Program-made: the position numbers and the translations under genes
DNA from: a virus
Length of the DNA stretch: 20,911 nt
Reading direction: 5' to 3' (one strand)
Virus record (IMG/VR): IMGVR_UViG_3300044302_001348
Location: 1 to 20,911 of that record
In this document: in pieces, positions 464-19,455 of the stretch
Position numbering within the stretch: position 1 is the stretch's first letter
Layout of the letters: the number at the start of each line of letters is the position of its first letter
Notes under the pieces: model-generated
What the model was told of the DNA's origin: nothing
Database searches by the model: none
What the model saw: the letters and a program-made list of their open reading frames with translations, nothing else

Positions 464-1960
464 ATGCTCGCGCTGTCGTTGCTGTGCTGCCTGACGCCGC
501 AGGTGGGCGTCAACCTGGAGCCGGTCCTAGACTGGCACCGCCAGACGCCGTTCGTGGACGCATTCAAGTCGGCGCGCCCATGGATTAGCCACCAAGCAGG
601 CACGCACGCCAGCGGGTTCGCATGGGGCGGAGGCCCGCCCGCCCAGCTCGACGCCAAGGGCTGGCCGCAGACCTTGCAGCCGCACCAATGGCTCGAGTCC
701 ATCGTCTACGCCGACCAGGGGGGCAACTACCCCAGCGGCATCTACACCATCCGATGGGACGGCGGCGGCACCATCGAGCCGCGCGCGGGCGGCAACGGGC
801 AGCTAACCGTCCTGCATCAAGCGCCCGGCCTGATCCACTGCGCGCTCCGCGTGCCCACGCAGGGGTTGTTCTCGCTGCGCATCACCAGCATGGCCCAGCC
901 CATCCGCAACGTGCGCGTGTATCTGCCCGGCTGGGACCAGTCGCCGCAGGTGTTCTCGCCCGACTTCCTGGCCAGCCTCAAGCCGTTCCAGGCTGTGCGG
1001 TTTATGAACTGGCAACGCATCAACGACAGCCCAGTGCGGGCTTGGGCCGAGGTGCCTGGCACGGACCACTACACGCAGGCGACAGACGCAGGCGTCGCGC
1101 CCGCCTACATGGCCCAGCTCTGCAACGAGCTCGGCGCGGACATGTGGCTCTGCGTGCCCCACCTCGCGACCAACCACTACGTCGCCAGCCTTGCCCAGCT
1201 AATCGACAAGGCGCTGCGCCGCGACCTGACCCTGTACCTGGAATACTCCAACGAGGTCTGGAACAGCCAGTTCGGGCAGAACGCCTACGCAGCGAGCCAA
1301 GGGCAGGCGCTGGGCCTAGGGTCGACGCCGTGGGTGGCAGCGTGGCGCTATTACGCGCAGCGCAGCGTGGAGGTGTTCCAGGTGTTCCAGGCCGAGCTGC
1401 GCGCGGATCGCCAGCTTGTGCGAGTCTTGGCCGGCCAGAGCGTCAACCCGTGGGTGGGCACGCAGATCATGGACTGGCAGAACGCCTACCAGCACGCCGA
1501 TGCCTACGCCGTGGCCCCGTATTGGGGCGGCAGCTTGGGCAGCTCAAGCAACGCGGCGACCACCGCAGCCATGGATCTGCGGACCCTGCTGCATGCCTGC
1601 GACCTAAACAGCCAGCAGCAGCACCAGCTCCGCACCTCGCAGAACGCTATCGAGGCCCAGCAGCGCGGCCTTGCCTTGCTAGCCTACGAGGGCGGGCAGC
1701 ACCTAGTCGGCGTGGGCGCGGCCCAGAACAACCAGACGCTGACGGACCTGTTCGTCGCCGCCAACCGTCACCCGGCCATGCGCTCGCTCTACTTCCACGA
1801 CCTGCTGCGCTGGGACGCCCACGGGGGCGGCTTGTTCATGGCTTATCGGCTGACCGGCCAGCCTAGCCGGTTCGGGTCGTTCGGCATGCTTGAGTATCAG
1901 AAGCAGCCGCTGCACGCCGCGCACAAGCTTCGGGGGCTGTTAGACTTCATGCACAGATGA
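464..1960 (+). CDS. Putative exported clan GH-A-like glycoside hydrolase (TIM-barrel type)
   Basis: A protein of 498 residues, probably cleaving a polysaccharide outside the cytoplasm. Residues 259-266 contain LEYSNEVW; the Asn-Glu pair (N263-E264) fits the acid/base motif of retaining clan GH-A enzymes. LLAYEGGQ around E409 fits the nucleophile strand, about 145 residues later as expected for barrel strands 4 and 7. The N-terminal block (FVDAFKSARPW) resembles bacterial proteins often labelled cellulose-binding. The first 15 residues are hydrophobic with a Cys pair but no basic residue, so the signal peptide is weak and the start uncertain; I see no clear ribosome site. The stop overlaps the lipoprotein start (ATGA). 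Its position away from the tail genes suggests accessory cargo rather than a tail depolymerase. The fold is inferred from motifs; the substrate is unknown. Confidence 0.65.
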   Translation: MLALSLLCCLTPQVGVNLEPVLDWHRQTPFVDAFKSARPWISHQAGTHASGFAWGGGPPAQLDAKGWPQTLQPHQWLESIVYADQGGNYPSGIYTIRWDGGGTIEPRAGGNGQLTVLHQAPGLIHCALRVPTQGLFSLRITSMAQPIRNVRVYLPGWDQSPQVFSPDFLASLKPFQAVRFMNWQRINDSPVRAWAEVPGTDHYTQATDAGVAPAYMAQLCNELGADMWLCVPHLATNHYVASLAQLIDKALRRDLTLYLEYSNEVWNSQFGQNAYAASQGQALGLGSTPWVAAWRYYAQRSVEVFQVFQAELRADRQLVRVLAGQSVNPWVGTQIMDWQNAYQHADAYAVAPYWGGSLGSSSNAATTAAMDLRTLLHACDLNSQQQHQLRTSQNAIEAQQRGLALLAYEGGQHLVGVGAAQNNQTLTDLFVAANRHPAMRSLYFHDLLRWDAHGGGLFMAYRLTGQPSRFGSFGMLEYQKQPLHAAHKLRGLLDFMHR

Positions 1961-2421
1961 AACACCTACACCCGCTCGCCTGCTTCTTGGCCTTGGCTGC
2001 TTGCACCAAGCGCGTGGTGGTCGAGGCTCCATTGTTGCCAGTTCCGCAATACGAGCTGGACATGGTAGGCACCGTCTACGGCAGCACCAGCTACGGAGAC
2101 TTCAACACGCAGTTGACGTTTGACCAAGACAGTCGTGGGCTGATGGCCGTGCTCAGTCGGCTCGACGGGCTGCTGGTCGAGTTCGATGTGCATGCTGAGT
2201 TCTTCCCCTACAGCACCAGCCTGCCGTCGTATCTAGTGCTGACGCCACGCACGCCGTGGACCTGGACCGCCTACGCGCCACCAGACCCCAACAGCTACCC
2301 GACGCTGCTGCTCGACTGCTACCTGTACACGCAGGGCGGCACGGTCTGGCCTCCGTCCGGGTTTGACAACTTCGCGCAGTCCAATGCAGTTTGGCCGCTC
2401 ATATTTTTCCGAGTCTGGTAG
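1957..2421 (+). CDS. Small lipoprotein, phage cargo (moron-like)
   Basis: A 154-residue protein beginning with a lipoprotein signal: a basic start (MKH), a hydrophobic core and the lipobox LAAC with Cys16. Residue +2 is Thr, not Asp, so by Gram-negative sorting rules it would move to the outer membrane. The mature part is rich in Tyr, Trp, Pro and Thr and looks beta-rich; I recognise no family. Its ATG overlaps the glycosidase stop by four bases, so the two are translationally coupled and probably act at the same place. Phage lipoproteins often block re-infection by masking receptors. That is one possibility; binding or anchoring the glycosidase or its substrate is another. It ends just before a palindromic promoter-like site, so it is probably last in its transcript. 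Confidence 0.6.
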   Translation: MKHLHPLACFLALAACTKRVVVEAPLLPVPQYELDMVGTVYGSTSYGDFNTQLTFDQDSRGLMAVLSRLDGLLVEFDVHAEFFPYSTSLPSYLVLTPRTPWTWTAYAPPDPNSYPTLLLDCYLYTQGGTVWPPSGFDNFAQSNAVWPLIFFRVW

Positions 2422-2423
2422 CC

Positions 2424-2445
2424 GGTGTGCGATATAATGCACACC
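2424..2445 (+). promoter_or_regulatory. Palindrome flanking a TATAAT box: candidate operator/promoter
   Basis: GGTGTGC (2424-2430) and GCACACC (2439-2445) form a perfect 7-bp inverted repeat around GATATAAT, with a consensus -10 hexamer at 2433-2438. No good -35 hexamer sits 16-18 bases upstream (around 2409-2416). If the box is used, transcription would start near 2445, at the ATG of the next gene (2446), giving an almost leaderless mRNA; there is no ribosome site in front of that ATG. A repressor bound to the arms would cover the -10. It is the only candidate operon boundary between the accessory pair and the packaging genes. No T-run follows, so a terminator is unlikely. Confidence 0.45.
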
Positions 2446-2751
2446 ATGCCAGTGCCTCCCGCAGATGTGCGCCGCACCGCCCGCAACGCTTTGGAACGCC
2501 GCAAGCGCCACGGGCGCGGCGGCACCGAGGTGGGCGTGGCTCGCGCTCGAGACCTAGCCAACGGGCGCAACATCAGCGAGAGCACGCTGCGCCGCATGGC
2601 CAGCTACTTCGCACGCCACGGAGGGCAGGACGCCAGCAGCGCACCGCGCGACAGCGCCGCAAATATCGCCTGGGGCCTATGGGGAGGCAGCGCCGGGCAG
2701 GCGTGGGTGCGCTCCGAGCTGGCCAAGATCGAACGAGACTCCAATGATTAA
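2446..2751 (+). CDS. Small conserved phage protein (RxxARxxLExRxxxGRGGT...RMxSYFARH family)
   Basis: A 101-residue basic protein. Motifs in order are VRRTARNALERRK, GRGGTEVGVARARDLANG, a Ser/Thr-rich turn into LRRMASYFARH, then IAWGLWGGSAGQAW near the C-terminus. I know this arrangement as a widespread phage module with no settled function, sometimes joined to other head or DNA-metabolism domains. The start at 2446 is chosen because it begins right before the conserved region; in-frame alternatives are ATG 2437 and GTG 2425, which lie inside the palindrome. Its end overlaps the DnaA-like gene by eight bases. The basic content and neighbours suggest a DNA-associated role, which is inference only. 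Confidence 0.6.
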   Translation: MPVPPADVRRTARNALERRKRHGRGGTEVGVARARDLANGRNISESTLRRMASYFARHGGQDASSAPRDSAANIAWGLWGGSAGQAWVRSELAKIERDSND

Positions 2752-3052
2752 CGACACACAGACCAACGCAGACCCCTACATCGCCCGCATCTGCTCCGAG
2801 TTCGGCGTGAACCGTGAGCAGTTGCTCGGCCCAGGACGCAGTCAGACCGTCAGCGCGCCGCGCAAGTTGCTGATGGCAGCTCTACGAGAGCAGGGATGGC
2901 AGCTCCGGGAGATCGCCGCGCTCATTGGCAACAGGCACCACAGCACCGTGATCCAGGGCATCCGCGACATGTCGAAGCGCCTAGCCGCTTCGCCAGCCTT
3001 GCAGACGATCTACAGCCGCGTCACCCTTGGAGCCGAAAGCGCCAGCGAATGA
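2744..3052 (+). CDS. Stand-alone DnaA domain-IV-like DNA-binding protein
   Basis: A 102-residue protein that is essentially the C-terminal DNA-binding domain of the bacterial initiator DnaA. Residues 14-28 (ARICSEFGVNREQLL) match the first helices. Residues 38-50 carry the conserved basic helix (APRKLLMAALREQ). IAALIGNRHHSTVIQGI at 57-73 is the DnaA signature helix-turn-helix, normally GxRDHTTVxxA. There is no ATPase domain. It may bind DnaA-box-like sites as a replication or transcription regulator, or compete with host DnaA; such free-standing domains occur in phages but are poorly studied. It starts inside the preceding gene's 3' end and its stop overlaps the methyltransferase start (ATGA at 3049-3052), placing it in the same operon. 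Confidence 0.8.
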   Translation: MINDTQTNADPYIARICSEFGVNREQLLGPGRSQTVSAPRKLLMAALREQGWQLREIAALIGNRHHSTVIQGIRDMSKRLAASPALQTIYSRVTLGAESASE

Positions 3053-4215
3053 CAGATGCCCACATCGCGGAGCCGCTGCGGCGGCTTTCCATGTCCATCG
3101 CGGACCTGACGCCCGACCCGGCCAACGCCCGCAAGCACGGGCCGCGCAACCTGGACGCCATCAAGGCGTCGCTGTCCGCATTTGGGCAGCGCAAGCCCGT
3201 CGTGGTGCAAGCCGAGGGCATGATCGTGCGCGCGGGCAACGGCACGCTGGAGGCAGCAAAGGCGCTAGGCTGGGAGACCATCGCGGCCGTCGTGTTGGAC
3301 GATGACAACGCCACCGCTAGCCAGTTTGCCATCGCGGACAACCGCACCGCCGAGCTCGCGGAATGGGACGACGAGACGCTGGCCAGCCTGCTGGACGGCA
3401 TGGACGAGCCGACCCGCGACATGCTGGCGTTCGACGATAAGGAGCTGGCCGGCCTGATGCGCGGCCTCGAGCCTGACGAGATCGTCGAGGACGAGGCACC
3501 GGAGCCGCCCGCCGACCCGATCACGCAGCCGGGCGACCTGTGGACGCTAGGCCAGCATCGGCTGCTGTGTGGGGACTGTGCGAACACTGAACACATGGCG
3601 GCGCTTCTAGGGGGAGAGAAGCCCGACGCGGTGGTCAGCGACCCCCCGTATGGCATGTCGTACGGCGGGACAGCAGGCACCGCTCAGAATGGCATGGACA
3701 ACTCCGCACGTAGGGTCGTCAAGCCCGTGCATGGAGATGACCAACACTTCGACCCCACCGCAGTTTTGAGCGCGACGTCAGGTGATGTCTTGCTGTGGGG
3801 CGGCGACTGGTTCTACGACCGACTGCCGCCTGGGGGATCGTGGATCATCTGGGACAAGCGAGCATCAGAAGCCGCCGACGCAATACCCGGAGCACCGTTT
3901 GAGGTTTGCTGGTCGCGGCGCAGGCAGGCAAGGTCCATTGTACGCGTCCCCTGGGGCGGCTGGAACAATCGGGAGAAGGGAGACATGGAGCGGTGGCACC
4001 CCACGCAAAAACCCGTCGCCGTGATGGCGGCAAGCGTGTCGGCAGCGAAGGGCAATAGCATCTTGGACCCGTTCGCAGGCTCCGGAACCACCCTTATCGC
4101 TTGCGAACAGTCCAGCCGGAGATGCTTGGCCATGGAGATCGACCCCGCCTACTGCGACGTGATCGTCCAGCGGTGGGAGAACCTGACCGGGCAGAAGGCG
4201 GTGCGGAATGGCTAA
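3049..4215 (+). CDS. ParB/Srx-like domain fused to a DPPY-type DNA methyltransferase
   Basis: A 388-residue fusion. Residues 15-130 form a ParB N-terminal-like domain: SIADLTPDPANARKH, a GQRKPVVV strand and RAGNGTLEAAKALGW, which corresponds to the ParB GE(R)R/GN region. Residues 160-385 are a beta-class amino methyltransferase: LLCGDC at 172-177, DPPYG at 198-202 (motif IV, catalytic), WHPTQKP at 316-322, then FAGSGTT at 342-348 (motif I, S-adenosylmethionine binding). The DPPY tetrad favours N6-adenine over N4-cytosine. The likely role is methylation of phage DNA against host restriction; the ParB-like part may give nuclease, CTPase or DNA-binding activity. The ATG at 3049 is chosen because it overlaps the upstream stop and precedes the domain exactly; a longer in-frame extension upstream lies within the DnaA-like gene. 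Confidence 0.9.
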   Translation: MTDAHIAEPLRRLSMSIADLTPDPANARKHGPRNLDAIKASLSAFGQRKPVVVQAEGMIVRAGNGTLEAAKALGWETIAAVVLDDDNATASQFAIADNRTAELAEWDDETLASLLDGMDEPTRDMLAFDDKELAGLMRGLEPDEIVEDEAPEPPADPITQPGDLWTLGQHRLLCGDCANTEHMAALLGGEKPDAVVSDPPYGMSYGGTAGTAQNGMDNSARRVVKPVHGDDQHFDPTAVLSATSGDVLLWGGDWFYDRLPPGGSWIIWDKRASEAADAIPGAPFEVCWSRRRQARSIVRVPWGGWNNREKGDMERWHPTQKPVAVMAASVSAAKGNSILDPFAGSGTTLIACEQSSRRCLAMEIDPAYCDVIVQRWENLTGQKAVRNG

Positions 4216-4567
4216 GGCCAAGGCCAAGCCACGCGGGCGACCGCGCAGCGTGATGACGGACGAGGTCATCGACAAGATCCTGCGGACCATCGAGCTGGGC
4301 GTCTGGCCTGACCGAGCTGCCCAGATGCACGGCGTCAGCGGTGCCAGCCTGCGCTCCCACAAGGCCCGCCACGCCGACTTTGCAACGCTCATAGAAAAGG
4401 CAGAAGCCAAGGCAGAAAGCAGCATCCACGGCAAGATCCTGCGGCACATGGACAAGCAGTGGACCGCCGCCGCCTGGATGCTCGAGCGCCGATTCCCTGA
4501 GCGATACGCCAAGCGCGAGATGCCTGCCGTAGAAGCCCAGCACGAACCCGACCCGCGCTTCGATTGA
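4208..4567 (+). CDS. terS: Terminase small subunit
   Basis: A 119-residue DNA-recognition subunit of the packaging motor. The N-terminus is basic with an AT-hook-like KPRGRPRS (residues 7-14). A helix-turn-helix region follows (VWPDRAAQMHGVSGASLRSHK, 33-53). The C-terminal WTAAAWMLERRFPERYAKRE is characteristic of this small-terminase group. It selects phage DNA and presents it to the large subunit, which follows immediately. Its ATG overlaps the methyltransferase stop by eight bases, and its own stop overlaps the TTG of the large subunit (TTGA), so the two terminase genes are tightly coupled. Confidence 0.85.
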   Translation: MAKAKAKPRGRPRSVMTDEVIDKILRTIELGVWPDRAAQMHGVSGASLRSHKARHADFATLIEKAEAKAESSIHGKILRHMDKQWTAAAWMLERRFPERYAKREMPAVEAQHEPDPRFD

Positions 4568-5874
4568 CCACGACCGTCGCACCCTTCTGGCGCATGGACG
4601 AACCCGAGCTGGCCGAGGACGGCAGCATCGCACGGGGCGGCATGTTCGCGCATCAGCGGGAATGGTGGGAAATGCCCAACTTTATCCGGGGCCTCGTCAC
4701 CGGCTACGGGGGCGGCAAGACCCTGGCCCTGGCCAAGCGCATGATCTGGCTGGCCATCAAGAACGCGCCCGTGCCCGTGGTCACCGTCAGCCCCAGCTAC
4801 CCGTTCGCGCTGACGACGATCGTGCAGACGCTCGACGAGCTGCTCGACGGCAAGAGCCGCAACGAGCCGCACCTGACGTATCACCTGTTCCGCAGTCAGC
4901 CCTACAGGTTCCACATCCGCTACCGCGACCGCACGGCCACCATCCTTTGCATGTCGGGCGAGCGGCCCGAGCGGTTGAAGGGTGCCAACATTGCAGCGGC
5001 TGGGATCGACGAGCCGTTTATCCAGCCCGTCGAGATGTTCGAGCAGATCCTGGCTCGCGTGCGGCACCCAGACGCCCGGCACAGGGAGATCAACGTCACA
5101 GGCACGCCCGAGGGCGTCGTGGGCTGGGGATACGACCTGTTCCAGGGCGAGATGCGGGAGAAGCACGACCTGGGGCTGGTGCAGTGCGCCAGCACGGCAA
5201 ACCGCGCGCTGCCGGATGACTACGTCGAGCGGCTGACCAACACCTACGACGAGGCCGCTGCGCAGGCATACGTGCAGGGCAAGTTCGTCAACCTGTCCAC
5301 CGGGCGCGTCTATCACAGCTTCGACCCCGAGCAGCACAGCGTGGCGCTCGAGCAGCCCGCCGACGCCGAGCTCTGCGTGGGCATGGACTTCAACGTCAAC
5401 CCGCTGGCCTTTGTTGTCTTTTGGCGCACGCAGACCCGCATGCATGTGGTTGCCGAGCACGAGCTGCCCAACTGCGACGCCGAGCAGGCGGCTGCGTTCA
5501 TCCGCCAGACGTATCCCAGCATCCGCCGGATCTACCCGGACGCCAGCGGCCAGAACCGCCAGCACGCAGGGGCGGGCGGCAAGAGCGCGTTCGGCTATCT
5601 GCGCGAGGCAGGGTTCACCATCTCAGCCCGACGGGCGAACCCGCAGATCGTGGACCGCATCAACGCGGTGAACGGATCCATGCGCCACGGGCGGGTGACC
5701 TTGTCCCCGTCATGTCGTAAAATGCGCGCCTACTTGCTCGGCTACACGCACGCGGACAGCAACAAACAGGTGCAGAAGGATATGTCGCACCTGCTGGACG
5801 CATTCGGCTATCCGATCGCCTACCTGTTCCCCGTAGACCGCACGACCGCGACGACCGTGGCATTCAGACAATGA
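4564..5874 (+). CDS. terL: Terminase large subunit (ATPase-nuclease)
   Basis: The packaging motor and headful or end-cutting nuclease, 436 residues. The ATPase part has Walker A GYGGGKT (47-53), Walker B GIDEP (147-151) and a coupling motif TGTPEG (179-184). The nuclease part has acidic residues typical of the RNase-H fold: D275 in MDFNVNP, D326 in YPDASG and D412 in HLLDAFGYPIAY. The start is taken as TTG at 4564, which overlaps the small-subunit stop; ATG 4594 (MDEPELAED) is the alternative and would lose only ten residues. I see no strong ribosome site for either, so translation probably depends on coupling. The portal gene overlaps its stop by four bases. Confidence 0.95.
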   Translation: MTTTVAPFWRMDEPELAEDGSIARGGMFAHQREWWEMPNFIRGLVTGYGGGKTLALAKRMIWLAIKNAPVPVVTVSPSYPFALTTIVQTLDELLDGKSRNEPHLTYHLFRSQPYRFHIRYRDRTATILCMSGERPERLKGANIAAAGIDEPFIQPVEMFEQILARVRHPDARHREINVTGTPEGVVGWGYDLFQGEMREKHDLGLVQCASTANRALPDDYVERLTNTYDEAAAQAYVQGKFVNLSTGRVYHSFDPEQHSVALEQPADAELCVGMDFNVNPLAFVVFWRTQTRMHVVAEHELPNCDAEQAAAFIRQTYPSIRRIYPDASGQNRQHAGAGGKSAFGYLREAGFTISARRANPQIVDRINAVNGSMRHGRVTLSPSCRKMRAYLLGYTHADSNKQVQKDMSHLLDAFGYPIAYLFPVDRTTATTVAFRQ

Positions 5875-7738: not shown

Positions 7739-8799
7739 CCGGACTGCCGCCGCCGATCGACCCCGAGCTGCGCGCTCGCCTACGGCGCGAGCTCAAGCAG
7801 CGCGCCAGCGAGTTCCTCACGCGCTTCAATCGGCATGATGTGCTGATGGCTCGAGGCGTGCGCGGCGTGCAGATCGAGGCCGTGCAGCAGTTCCGCAGGC
7901 TTGTGGTGGAGCCGCTGCTCGACAGCATCGGGGGCACCTTAGCGGGCATCGACGCACGCGGGCGCGAGGTCACACCTGAGCGATACCCGCAGCTCGCCCT
8001 ACTACTAGACGAGATCGACCTGATCTTGCAGCGCGGCATCCTGGAGCTGCGCCAGTTGACAGAGGCACGGCTGCAAGAGGTGGGGCAGCGCGAGGCCGAC
8101 TTCGTAGCCGAGAACGTCGAGCGCACGACCGACCAAGCCATACCGCTGGTGCAAGCGCCAGACCCGTCGCAGCAGCGCGTCATGGGCGACACGCCGGAGC
8201 AGTGGTTCGACAAGATGCTGCAAGCGCCCACGGGCGACAGCCTGCGGCGGCGCATCCTGCAGGGACTTGAGCAGGGCGAGACCGTCGATCAGATCGTGCG
8301 CGGCATCCGTGGATCGCGCACCGAGGAGGGCATACTGGACAAGGCTGCAACAGGCGTCGAGACGCTGGTGCGGACTGCTGCGACGACGGAGAGCAACGCG
8401 GCGCGCGAGGAGACGTTCCGCGAGCTCGGCATTGAGCGGTGGCGCTTCGTGGCCACGCTCGACAGCCGCACGACCATCCTGTGCGCTAGCCTAGACGGCA
8501 AGACCTACCCGGTGGGCGAGGGGCCAATGCCGCCGCTGCATCCCAACTGTCGCAGCACTGCCGTGCCGTTTTTCGACGAGGAGCCGGAGGGCACGCGCGC
8601 GGCGTTTGATGGTCAGGTCGAGGCCAAGGTCACGTTCGAGGAATGGCTACAGACGCGCCCACAGGCCGAGCAGAACGAGATGCTGGGCAAGACCAAGGCA
8701 GCGGCATGGCGTCGCGGCGACATCACCTTGCAGCAGATGCTAGGCCGCGACTTGCAGCCGCTGACGCTGGAGGAATTACGACAGAAAGACAGGCTTTAA
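7735..8799 (+). CDS. MuF / SPP1 gp7-like minor head protein
   Basis: A 354-residue protein with the MuF signature in its C-terminal third: TLDSRTTILC (241-250), LDGKTYPVGEG (253-263) and PPLHPNCRST (266-275). The histidine and cysteines are in the conserved pattern. The N-terminal half is helical and rich in Gln, Arg and Glu. MuF proteins bind the portal or the inside of the procapsid and may be ejected with the DNA; their exact role differs between phages. Position after the portal is typical. No toxin domain follows the MuF domain here, unlike some polymorphic-toxin MuF fusions; the protein ends about 80 residues after the signature. Confidence 0.9.
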   Translation: MTGLPPPIDPELRARLRRELKQRASEFLTRFNRHDVLMARGVRGVQIEAVQQFRRLVVEPLLDSIGGTLAGIDARGREVTPERYPQLALLLDEIDLILQRGILELRQLTEARLQEVGQREADFVAENVERTTDQAIPLVQAPDPSQQRVMGDTPEQWFDKMLQAPTGDSLRRRILQGLEQGETVDQIVRGIRGSRTEEGILDKAATGVETLVRTAATTESNAAREETFRELGIERWRFVATLDSRTTILCASLDGKTYPVGEGPMPPLHPNCRSTAVPFFDEEPEGTRAAFDGQVEAKVTFEEWLQTRPQAEQNEMLGKTKAAAWRRGDITLQQMLGRDLQPLTLEELRQKDRL

Positions 8800-8801
8800 A
8801 A

Positions 8802-8870
8802 ATGCACAAATACAAGAAGGGCAAGAAGCCCAAGAAGCCCACGACCACGAAACCCAAGCCCAAGAGGTAG
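8802..8870 (+). CDS. 22-residue Lys/Pro-rich peptide (possible micro-gene)
   Basis: An ATG two bases after the MuF stop opens a 22-residue frame ending at TAG 8868-8870, three bases before the next ATG. The peptide is almost entirely Lys, Pro, Thr and Gly (KKGKKPKKP repeated theme). There is no clear ribosome site, but it fills the gap between two head genes neatly and reinitiation after the MuF stop is possible. Such a basic peptide could bind DNA or scaffold. It might also be non-coding spacer. Confidence 0.4.
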   Translation: MHKYKKGKKPKKPTTTKPKPKR

Positions 8871-8873
8871 ACG

Positions 8874-9644
8874 ATGCTGAGAAAGACCTACGCAGCGCAG
8901 GACGAGATCCCGGAGGGTCTGCGCGATTACTACGCCGACACCGGCAACGGATGGCAGCTCCAAGTTGAGACCGGCGACAGCCCGGCGGTTGACCTGACCC
9001 GATACCGCGAGATGCGCGACAACAACATTCGGATGAAGGCCCAGCTTGAGGAGCTGATGACGGAGCAGGAGCAGATCCGAGGCCAGTACAAGAGCATGCT
9101 GGACAAGGCGCAGGGCGAGGAGGAGGCCGCGCTGCTCAAGTCGGGGCAGTTCGACGAGGTGCTCGAGCGCCGCACGCAGTCGATCAAGAGCGAATACCAG
9201 CGCCAGCTTGAGGATCTGCACGCGCAGCGAGAGCAGGCCGAGAACGACAAGCAGGCCGCGCGCCAGAGGTTTGGCAGCGTTTACCTGGGCGAGCAGCTCG
9301 CGGGAGCTCTCGAGCGCAAGAAGCTGCGCCTACGCCCCACGGCCCGTGCCGACCTACTCACAAGGGCGGGGGGCACCTTCGAGCCGAACGATGCACTGGA
9401 TGCGCTGGTCGCTAAGCACGACAACGTGGGCGAGCGCGGCGAGTCGCTGACCATCGAGGAATGGCTGGATCGCACCGTGAGCGATGCGCCGCACCTGTTT
9501 GACGGTGGGGACGGCGGCGGAGCTACGCCTGGCGGCGGCGTCGGCGGGAACCGCATCCGCATGGCTGACGTTCAGTCAGACCCGGTGGCGTTCTTGCAGG
9601 CGTCCGAGAAGGTCGCGCGCGGGGAGGCACAATGGACAGAATGA
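8874..9644 (+). CDS. Capsid scaffold-like protein
   Basis: A 256-residue acidic, largely helical protein. Residues about 41-133 form a long coiled coil (heptad-like MKAQLEELMTEQEQIRGQYK and later QLEDLHAQREQAEN). A Gly-rich linker at about 205-220 leads to a C-terminal tail with DPVAFLQASEKVARG, a type of amphipathic end often found in scaffolds. It is placed between the minor head protein and the capsid gene, where scaffolds lie. It would form the internal core on which coat subunits assemble before DNA entry. AGAGG at 8862-8866 lies at proper distance from ATG 8874. No protease domain is visible in the gene or its neighbours. Confidence 0.75.
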   Translation: MLRKTYAAQDEIPEGLRDYYADTGNGWQLQVETGDSPAVDLTRYREMRDNNIRMKAQLEELMTEQEQIRGQYKSMLDKAQGEEEAALLKSGQFDEVLERRTQSIKSEYQRQLEDLHAQREQAENDKQAARQRFGSVYLGEQLAGALERKKLRLRPTARADLLTRAGGTFEPNDALDALVAKHDNVGERGESLTIEEWLDRTVSDAPHLFDGGDGGGATPGGGVGGNRIRMADVQSDPVAFLQASEKVARGEAQWTE

Positions 9645-9991
9645 TGCGAATGCACAGCGTGCAGTTCCGCCATCACAGCGGACCCGTGGACCTTGTGCAG
9701 CCCAAGGGCAGCAAGCTGCTGCGCGTCTACCAGAGCGGCAGCGGCTACTGGTTCGCCGACATGCTGTCGCCGGAGATGGCCCACGAGGAGGAGCCGCTGC
9801 GCCTGTGGCTGCTTACCCACAAGGACACGCATACGAGCGTCGCCGAGAACTGGGACTGCGTCGGGCACAGCACCAGCCGCCAAGGGCTGCGTGTTTACGT
9901 GTTCCAACAAACGAGCACGCCAGCCAAGCGCAAGCCGGGCAGGCCACGCAAGGCCGCCCAGAAGCCGCCGGTTGACCCCGGCACGCCCTAG
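9632..9991 (+). CDS. Unknown head-region protein with C-terminal AT-hook
   Basis: A 119-residue protein of no family I recognise. Residues 9-92 look like a small beta-rich domain (VDLVQPKGSKLLRVYQ, GSGYWFADML, LRLWLLTHK, GLRVYVFQQ). Residues 99-107, KRKPGRPRK, are a near-consensus AT-hook (core GRP flanked by basic residues), followed by a Pro-rich tail. The start at 9632 has an excellent ribosome site, GGGGAGG at 9621-9627; ATGs at 9641 and 9644 are too far from it. It overlaps the scaffold gene's end by 13 bases. A role binding DNA inside the capsid or regulating capsid transcription is possible; neither is shown. The -35 of the capsid promoter lies in its last codons. Confidence 0.65.
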   Translation: MDRMMRMHSVQFRHHSGPVDLVQPKGSKLLRVYQSGSGYWFADMLSPEMAHEEEPLRLWLLTHKDTHTSVAENWDCVGHSTSRQGLRVYVFQQTSTPAKRKPGRPRKAAQKPPVDPGTP

Positions 9992-17441: not shown

Positions 17442-18568
17442 TGGCGCGCACGGCTGTCGAAGAGATGTGGGGCGGGACGTATACGCCAACGGGCACAAGC
17501 AACCTGCCGCTGCCGTCGGGCGTGCCTGGCGCGGCGCGTTTCATCTACAACACCAACGACAGCGGCGTCCTGACAATGCCCGACGCGCGGCTGCTGACTA
17601 CAGGCGGGCCGCTGTACACGATCTGCAACAACGAGGGCGGCTCTGGCAGCGTCATTATCAAAGACAACGCGAGCGGCGCGCTGTTGACGATGAACAACCA
17701 CGAGGTCGCGCACTTCTACCTCGTAGACAACAGCACGCAGGCAGGCGTTTGGCAGGTAGTCGAGGTAGGCACGGCCTCGTTCAGCGCCGCGCAGACGATC
17801 ACGGTGGACGAGTTCACGATCGAGTTCGGCCCGGGTGTGAACCTCGACGCCAACATCCGCACGATGTGCGACGACCTCGGATATGCGGGCACCAACCCGG
17901 TGCGCGTCAACGTCTTCGTCGGCCCGCAAGGAGCTGCCACGGTTGGCGCAGTCGGTGGCAACGGCACTAGCCTGCCAGCTCTGGACACGGGCACCTTTCC
18001 AGCGGGCAGCGTGATCATCCTGACCGTGCTGGCCAACGGCTATATCGCAGGCCGTGGCGGGCAGGGTGGCACCGGGCAACCGATCACAGGCGGCACGCCG
18101 AGCTCGCCAACAGTCGGCAGCGTCACCGTGGGCGGCATCGGTGGCGATGGCCTATACGTGCGAACCAACACCGTGCTGTACAACTACGGGCGCGTGCAGG
18201 GCGGCGGCGGCGGCGGCAGCGGCGGCAGTGCTGTCGGAGCTATCAGCGGACCCGGAGGCGGCGGCGGAGCTGGCCACCGCAAGGGCGTGGCTGGCCCAGC
18301 GGGCGGCTTCCCAACCAACCAAGGGTTTGGCTCAGGTGGCGACGGCCTAGCGGGCTTCCTCAACCATGCGGGCGAGGGCGGCGGCACCAGCAACGGAGCG
18401 CCAGCGGGCACAGGCGGAGCAGGCGGCGACCCTGGCCAAGCTGGCAGCGCAGCAAGCGACAGCACGGCGGGGTTCGGCCAGCCCGGGTTCGCTATTAAGG
18501 TGGCGTCGGGCGTGACGCTGACCAAGGCCGTGGCGGGTAGCATCGACGGCAGCGAGGGCACGATCTAA
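17441..18568 (+). CDS. Glycine-rich tail-tip protein, possible receptor binder
   Basis: A 375-residue protein from GTG 17441, one base inside the preceding stop; a GTG at 17426 would overlap more. Residues 42-107 form a small beta domain resembling the end of the distal tail protein. Residues 120-200 contain a second beta region (ITVDEFTIEFGPGVNLDANIR to GSVIILTVLANGYI). Residues 201-339 are strongly Gly-rich, with runs such as QGGGGGGSGGS and PGGGGGAG, and a short hydrophobic end follows. Gly-rich arrays of this sort are known in tail-tip adhesins of other phages, where they pack as polyglycine-II helices and the loops between bind the receptor. The role here is inferred. It is inserted between the two proteins that are adjacent in gene transfer agents. 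Confidence 0.72.
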   Translation: MARTAVEEMWGGTYTPTGTSNLPLPSGVPGAARFIYNTNDSGVLTMPDARLLTTGGPLYTICNNEGGSGSVIIKDNASGALLTMNNHEVAHFYLVDNSTQAGVWQVVEVGTASFSAAQTITVDEFTIEFGPGVNLDANIRTMCDDLGYAGTNPVRVNVFVGPQGAATVGAVGGNGTSLPALDTGTFPAGSVIILTVLANGYIAGRGGQGGTGQPITGGTPSSPTVGSVTVGGIGGDGLYVRTNTVLYNYGRVQGGGGGGSGGSAVGAISGPGGGGGAGHRKGVAGPAGGFPTNQGFGSGGDGLAGFLNHAGEGGGTSNGAPAGTGGAGGDPGQAGSAASDSTAGFGQPGFAIKVASGVTLTKAVAGSIDGSEGTI

Positions 18569-19455
18569 TGACGACGCGACCGGGACGCATGGCCGAGGAC
18601 TTGCTGCGATACCATCGCGGCAAGCATCTGGCGCACTGCCTGCGCGTCGTCGCTTTGGATGGCAGCGAGCTGCTGTTCACAGATCACGACCGCAAGCTAA
18701 CGGTCGAGAGCAAGACATACCTGCCGATCGTGTTGGGCAGTCTGAGCGCCGACCGTCGCGAGGGCGGGCTGCGCGCGGGCGATCAAGACGTGCGCGGCGT
18801 CATCGACGGAACAAGCATCACGCTGCCACAGCTACGGCAGCAGAAGTATCGCGGCGCGACCGTGCATCTGCTCGTCGTGGACTGGTGCAAGCCCGCCATC
18901 GTCTACAGCAGGCACCAGCGAATCATCGCGCGCATCGTCTACGACGGCAGCAACTTCGTGGGCACCATGCAGAGCGTCACCCAGAAACTGCGACGCCAGA
19001 CCGGCGGGCGTTTCGGTGGCCATTTCAGCGAGACTTGCCAGTACGAGCTGGGCGGCGGGTTCTGTCAGGCTGACATCAGCGCCACGACCATCGCCACGGC
19101 GATCGTGGACACCGTGCCCGATGCCTACATGACGGTGCGGTTCACCACAGCCAGCTTCGCGCCGCCGTCTGCTGGGCAGGTAGACGATTACTACCGCGAC
19201 GGCAGCATCGTCTGGACTACCGGCAACAACGTGGGGCAGGTCAGCCCGATCGTCGGGTTCACCTACAGCACGCGAGAATGCCGTCTGCTGATCCCGACGC
19301 TGCAAGCGATGGCCGTGGGCGACCGTGGCACCGTGAAGCCCGGATGCAACGGCCTGTTTGACACCTGCAAAGACAAGTTTAGCAACCAGCAGAACTTTGG
19401 CGGCAGCGACCTCGAGCCGCGCGCAGGCAACATCAGGGAACCTGTCATCGAATGA
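18568..19455 (+). CDS. Baseplate hub protein (DUF2163 / BR0599 type, gpL-like)
   Basis: A 295-residue hub protein. The N-terminal half has LRVVALDGSELLFTDHDRKL and REGGLRAGDQDVRGVI, typical of DUF2163. The C-terminal half has HFSETCQYELGGGFC (Cys157, Cys166) and PGCNGLFDTCKDKFSNQQNFGG (Cys260, Cys267), the conserved BR0599 block. The paired C-x8-C and C-x6-C spacing is the one I recall for lambda gpL and related tail-tip proteins that hold an iron-sulphur cluster, so a cluster is likely. It closes the tail and carries the central fibre. ATG overlaps the upstream stop by one base, and the stop overlaps the peptidase start (ATGA). Confidence 0.9.
   Translation: MTTRPGRMAEDLLRYHRGKHLAHCLRVVALDGSELLFTDHDRKLTVESKTYLPIVLGSLSADRREGGLRAGDQDVRGVIDGTSITLPQLRQQKYRGATVHLLVVDWCKPAIVYSRHQRIIARIVYDGSNFVGTMQSVTQKLRRQTGGRFGGHFSETCQYELGGGFCQADISATTIATAIVDTVPDAYMTVRFTTASFAPPSAGQVDDYYRDGSIVWTTGNNVGQVSPIVGFTYSTRECRLLIPTLQAMAVGDRGTVKPGCNGLFDTCKDKFSNQQNFGGSDLEPRAGNIREPVIE

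Follow-up and report, generated by a model that had tools for sequence, protein, structure and literature searches.

A clan GH-A-like glycoside hydrolase with a putative export signal is an accessory gene of tailed phages

What does a tailed phage do with a glycosidase-like gene that stands apart from its tail genes, and does the small lipoprotein gene that overlaps it belong to the same device? The question is raised by one end of a 20.9-kb virus record of the fragment class, here called the window, which is the whole stretch of DNA that was analyzed (20,911 nt). The window encodes terminase, portal, major head, and tail genes. Its terminase large subunit (TerL) identifies it as a tailed phage and allowed sister phages to be found. 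TerL is closest to Vibrio phages (45%) and the portal to a Dinoroseobacter phage (31%); TerL matches in 392 genomes from the phylum of the bacterial relative L055 were weak, partial, and reached at most 33%. The initial annotation had placed two plus-strand reading frames here, an enzyme and a lipobox lipoprotein sharing a four-base ATGA overlap, at a distance from the tail genes, and this layout was confirmed (Table 1), with the noted interval closing on the stop codon of the lipoprotein gene. The enzyme gene lies within a row of same-strand genes behind a 25-nt gap, and the tail genes begin ~12 kb downstream of it. No second copy was detected in the 3.5 kb past the tail-tip gene of the near-identical contig G001.

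Table 1. Features of the window around the enzyme gene
Feature	Positions	Strand	Basis
DNA cytosine methyltransferase, C-terminal part, cut at contig end	1..438	+	left neighbor of insertion site
Clan GH-A-like glycoside hydrolase, 498 aa, accessory gene	464..1960	+	ORF; model; Foldseek; relatives
Hydrophobic N-terminus MLALSLLCCLTP, putative short export signal	464..499	+	hydrophobicity; model pLDDT <50 over residues 1-9
Beta-sandwich insert between first and second barrel strands, residues 68-153	665..922	+	DSSP strands 68-70 to 148-153 in model
N263-E264, proposed acid/base (EYSNEVWN), after strand 4	1250..1255	+	invariant in alignments A1 and A4; strand 257-261 precedes
E409, proposed nucleophile, end of strand 7	1688..1690	+	invariant in A1 and A4; strand 404-410
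Lipoprotein, 154 aa, separate accessory or resident gene	1957..2421	+	ORF; relatives L136 90%, L143 54-55%
Lipobox L-A-A-C (C16), residue +2 = T	1993..2004	+	sequence
108-aa phage protein, phrog_2859	2425..2751	+	PHROG E 1.3e-14; right neighbor
Terminase large subunit	4564..5874	+	phrog_2 E 1.4e-37; sister loci 82-91%

The left neighbor has a complete homolog in sister phage L143 (504-1544), and the DNA of the two is 90% identical as far as window position 419; the methyltransferase family call is a reading of the L143 protein. The 108-aa gene on the right is common across viral contigs. Ahead of the terminase genes, at window positions 2896-4215, a single protein fuses ParB-like and DNA methyltransferase domains (phrog_498, phrog_8071). 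Contig L135 extends past the right end of the window, where the tail-tip gene and a fiber-like gene precede a row of four (1696-2954, minus strand): genes for two membrane proteins, one small and one of 167 aa, then one for a second lipoprotein (LLTGCEG), and finally a 93-aa gene. This group is possibly a lysis cassette, and its second lipoprotein and 93-aa gene read as homologs of the genes that immediately precede the enzyme in phage L027.

A structure model of the enzyme built from 26 relatives (pLDDT 92, pTM 0.91) predicts a TIM barrel, a (beta/alpha)8 fold, that starts at residue 14 and holds a beta-sandwich insert. A short strand at residues 14-17 is followed by barrel strands at about 177, 226, 257, 318, 347, 404, and 458. 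Clan GH-A enzymes carry their catalytic glutamates after strands 4 and 7, with an asparagine before the acid/base. By strand order in the model, the Asn-Glu pair follows strand 4 and a second glutamate ends strand 7, while R179 follows the second barrel strand and Y353 the sixth. N263, E264, E409, R179, W228, P232, Y353, and Y408 are invariant in 26 of 26 aligned relatives, and dN/dS values of 0.03-0.17 between enzyme pairs indicate purifying selection. The best PDB structural matches found by Foldseek are GH51, GH5, GH53, GH164, and GH113 enzymes, and the best 50 of the 95 matches at E ≤ 0.001 are mostly GH-A enzymes. The window enzyme differs from these GH-A structures in its low identity (7-14%), in TM-scores that reach only 0.56, and in the beta-sandwich after the first strand region, which probably accounts for the modest scores. 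The initial annotation's clan GH-A-like enzyme with N263-E264 and E409 thus held up in the structure prediction and GH-A search, and fold and residues together support a protein of clan GH-A architecture with a predicted hydrolase activity. A non-catalytic glycan-binding or decoy protein that has merely kept the fold would fit the lack of any member with demonstrated activity among those found here, but is highly improbable, as none of R179, N263, E264, Y353, Y408, and E409 varies in the phage alignment and the matching positions of the bacterial alignment are invariant too.

The enzyme had no relevant match in Pfam, NCBIfam, PHROGs, or PDB sequences, and profile searches of the first three gave none for 26 and 36 aligned relatives either. 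Cultured-phage records contained no relative of the enzyme or of the lipoprotein. Relatives of the enzyme are nevertheless numerous: 49 are viral, and a scan of 84,980 species genomes confirmed at least 590 bacterial loci, the best 80 of which are mainly from Planctomycetota, with cyanobacteria, Armatimonadota, and others. Plasmids of Rhizobium, Shinella, Sulfitobacter, Paracoccus, and Novosphingobium also encode relatives. Of 36 relatives scanned, two have a sorting domain for type 9 secretion, and a GDSL hydrolase domain was seen in one. The reading frame of a Pirellulaceae relative (L124, 5344-7533) includes upstream GDSL/SGNH hydrolase-like sequence, which suggests an acetylated substrate.

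The claim that the locus is undescribed therefore stands for the enzyme family and falls for the phage-borne glycoside hydrolase as such, since a GH5 endomannanase (PMC6786970) and a chitosanase (PMC9485262) have been reported from soil viruses. Like the window enzyme, these are bacterial-type glycosidases in uncultivated viruses. The window enzyme differs in belonging to a family absent from the searched libraries, in its putative export signal, and in gene-for-gene swapping between phage types, and these three points are what is new.

The N-terminus of the enzyme points to export. Residues 2-11 have a mean Kyte-Doolittle score of 2.43, in the top 0.08% of the 6202 ten-mers from the window's proteins, and all 11 phage-clade relatives checked keep a hydrophobic start (1.9-2.8) despite changed sequence. 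Most bacterial relatives carry, by eye, a signal peptide, a Tat-like signal, a lipobox, or a type 9 sorting domain. The putative phage signal spans ~12 residues and has an h-region, with neither a basic residue nor a clear cleavage motif. Export of the window enzyme is rated likely, and no higher because the N-terminus is short and lacks a basic residue.

The enzyme has spread among phages as a single gene. In a quick tree, with SH-aLRT as the sole support measure, the 13 solo phage enzymes form one clade (support 100) that covers three genome types: the window and L004, with siphovirus-type tail genes; L003/L138; and ten members of a large-phage lineage (≥91 kb). The clade is nested (support 99) in sequences from Planctomycetota and a UBP7 bacterium. 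The enzymes of phages L027 and L028 have lipobox N-termini and probably represent a separate acquisition. The gene adjoins thyX and DNA polymerase in large phages L006, L011, and L016, lies upstream of the terminase in L012, L014, L018, and L019, and sits just downstream of the tail module, after its tail-tip genes, in L004.

Most upstream sequences examined in the large-phage lineage have a TATATAA box 11-14 nt before the enzyme ATG; the box is absent in L014. TATATAA was rejected as the general late promoter in the large phages, since it occurs only nine times in a 91-kb contig. By analogy, the box would act like a private promoter of cargo genes. In the 91-kb phage of contig G007 (L248-L252; 48124, minus strand, and 83256, plus strand), it precedes two start codons by exactly 11 nt, that of the enzyme gene and that of a 115-aa gene whose product has a clear signal peptide, and in L012 it lies 9 nt before an exported 238-aa gene (3349, minus strand). 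TATATAA may be a near-leaderless promoter common to exported accessory genes.

Phage enzymes that act on polysaccharides are viewed mainly as virion spikes, and the main alternative to an exported enzyme is a virion-associated depolymerase that would sit on the tail or head as a small appendage and clear host polysaccharide during adsorption. The family is probably used in virion form too. A 2220-aa tail-fiber-like protein of a 285-kb contig (L043, 6852-13514) contains the glycosidase domain, and adjacent proteins share its N-terminal segment. In a cousin phage (TerL 60%), the N-terminal half of an 859-aa protein reads as a tailspike beta-helix fused to a distant family member with EYSNETWN (L155, 29-2608); this fusion protein has no signal and is encoded upstream of the ParB-methyltransferase gene and the packaging genes for TerS and TerL, and cousin L156 likewise has the 859-aa protein with a tailspike-like N-terminal segment. 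These fusions, and the L004 gene that follows tail-tip genes, keep a virion role for the window enzyme alive. Against it, neither a fused virion-anchoring domain nor a beta-helix is present in the window enzyme, these being confined to the distant relatives L043 and L155, and the window clade keeps a hydrophobic N-terminus in place of an anchoring domain. The window gene also lies outside the tail module, some large phages keep its relatives next to replication genes, sister phages can do without the gene (see below), and one clade spans unrelated genome types. A virion depolymerase is therefore somewhat unlikely. The initial annotation had favored an exported enzyme over a trimeric tail fiber; the hydrophobic N-terminus and the signals of most bacterial relatives make it probably exported and not a stand-alone fiber, and the probable virion proteins among its distant relatives leave a virion role some probability.

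The presence of the enzyme gene varies at fixed sites. Sister phage L143 is close to the window (TerL 91%, portal 88%). In the window the methyltransferase and lipoprotein genes flank the enzyme, and in L143 a gap of 9 nt separates the same methyltransferase from the lipoprotein (54-55% identical), and neither this gap nor the rest of the 29.5-kb contig holds an enzyme gene. By itself this difference fits either gain or loss of the enzyme gene. Two further sisters, L145 and L147, have neither enzyme nor lipoprotein upstream of the 108-aa gene. The enzyme is thus missing at the same site in three close relatives, as is typical of moron-type cargo. A second exchange site was found between the collinear contigs L138, whose portal is podophage-type by reading, and L136. 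At this site, whose flanks align at 74% and 87%, L138 has the enzyme (17522-19009) and, in its sequenced part, no lipoprotein, and L136 has the lipoprotein (9185-9649, 90% identical to that of the window), an unrelated gene, and no enzyme. Next to the lipoprotein at this exchange site, which in L138 is occupied by the enzyme, L136 carries a 142-aa gene with a metallopeptidase-like HDLGH motif (about 8744-9170, plus strand). When the opening 3.1 kb of the window was compared with L136, only the lipoprotein gene matched at the DNA level (87%, window 1947-2420), and protein comparison of the window genes with L136 gave nothing beyond it. The two comparisons show that each gene travels alone and that both use shared sites. 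Together with the single clade across genome types, they bear out the description of the enzyme gene as accessory.

The same comparisons speak against the proposal that enzyme and lipoprotein form a functional pair. The lipoprotein is itself well supported: MKHLHPLACFLALAAC places a lipobox after a basic n-region, LAAC is the same in L136 (the L143 homolog has a non-consensus LVCC), and dN/dS between the window and L136 copies is 0.086. Besides near-identical copies, wider searches found relatives in L054/L136 and L143 only, and none in the 392 genomes from the phylum of L055. Its structure model (pLDDT 47) was too poor for structural search. Superinfection-exclusion lipoproteins such as Ltp (PMC3952083) are likewise small phage lipoproteins with a lipobox; no sequence relation of the 154-aa protein to Ltp-type proteins was found. 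The 4-nt ATGA overlap recurs in near-identical contigs, and adjacency and overlap would suit a working pair, with the lipoprotein as anchor of the enzyme or as exclusion factor. Each gene, however, stands alone in related phages, at two separate loci. None of the other phage copies of the enzyme had a lipoprotein relative next to it, and conservation of the pair was looked for without success. ATGA was rejected as a mark of special coupling, as it occurs at 8 of 22 neighboring gene junctions in this genome. A working pair is very unlikely, and by sequence comparison the lipoprotein is best described as a neighbor, an independent cargo gene at the enzyme's site and not a fixed partner.

The substrate was approached through bacterial gene neighborhoods. 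The three bacterial relatives closest to the phage clade adjoin Alg14 and GT2 genes (L055), an SLBB/Poly_export gene (L057), and a GT2 gene (L060). The Shinella relative is flanked by genes for an O-antigen ligase and for polysaccharide export, and the Sulfitobacter relative lies near a mannose-1-phosphate guanylyltransferase. Most of 100 bacterial neighbor genes are unrelated to polysaccharide. From the polysaccharide-export and glycosyltransferase neighbors we infer an exopolysaccharide target, and the mixed neighborhoods keep this at the level of inference; the phage enzyme is probably aimed at host extracellular polysaccharide. PslG is a GH-A-clan enzyme. PslG-type endoglycosidases are encoded in polysaccharide synthesis clusters, as are some bacterial relatives here, and the likeness is one of gene setting; glycosyl hydrolase genes are known to occur within exopolysaccharide clusters (PMC9075953). 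The phage gene differs from the PslG type in standing without polysaccharide genes. No direct precedent for a secreted phage exopolysaccharide hydrolase was found in the open-access papers searched.

An auxiliary metabolic gene, whose secreted product digests an environmental glycan and feeds phage replication, would be in line with the soil viral endomannanase (PMC6786970) and chitosanase (PMC9485262) and with the Rhizobium relative, which by eye adjoins apparent sugar ABC-transporter genes. It is unlikely all the same, as the closest bacterial relatives adjoin polysaccharide-making genes, no uptake or catabolic gene was recognized beside the enzyme in the phages examined, and a lytic burst would presumably leave little time to profit.

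We lean slightly toward a captured bacterial enzyme that is now optional cargo and is exported to cut the polysaccharide of the infected cell. A secreted enzyme of a Planctomycetota-like bacterium would have been captured once and would now be carried as optional single-gene cargo by unrelated phages. Made in the infected cell, it would cross the inner membrane by means of its short hydrophobic N-terminus. There it would act as a retaining glycoside hydrolase, with E264 as acid/base and E409 as nucleophile, and cleave the cell's own envelope or extracellular polysaccharide. The benefit would be easier escape of progeny and easier spread through capsule or biofilm matrix. A wider proposal, which we regard as possible rather than probable, is that unrelated virion types share a pool of swappable envelope-modifying cargo at fixed sites, consisting of the exported exopolysaccharide hydrolase, small lipoproteins, and an HxxxH-type protein. 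The enzyme might then act as a public good, diffusing out to open up the matrix that surrounds the infected cell, in place of a virion-bound depolymerase, and might define an unassayed glycoside hydrolase family.

The family, which is encoded at no fewer than 590 bacterial loci and for which neither a curated model nor a solved structure was found, is a class directly open to assay, and sister phages with and without the enzyme provide a clean natural comparison. If the enzyme is indeed soluble, exported, and passed freely between phages, infected cells could have their surrounding matrix remodeled before or during lysis, with effects on phage spread in biofilms and on carbon release in water and soil.
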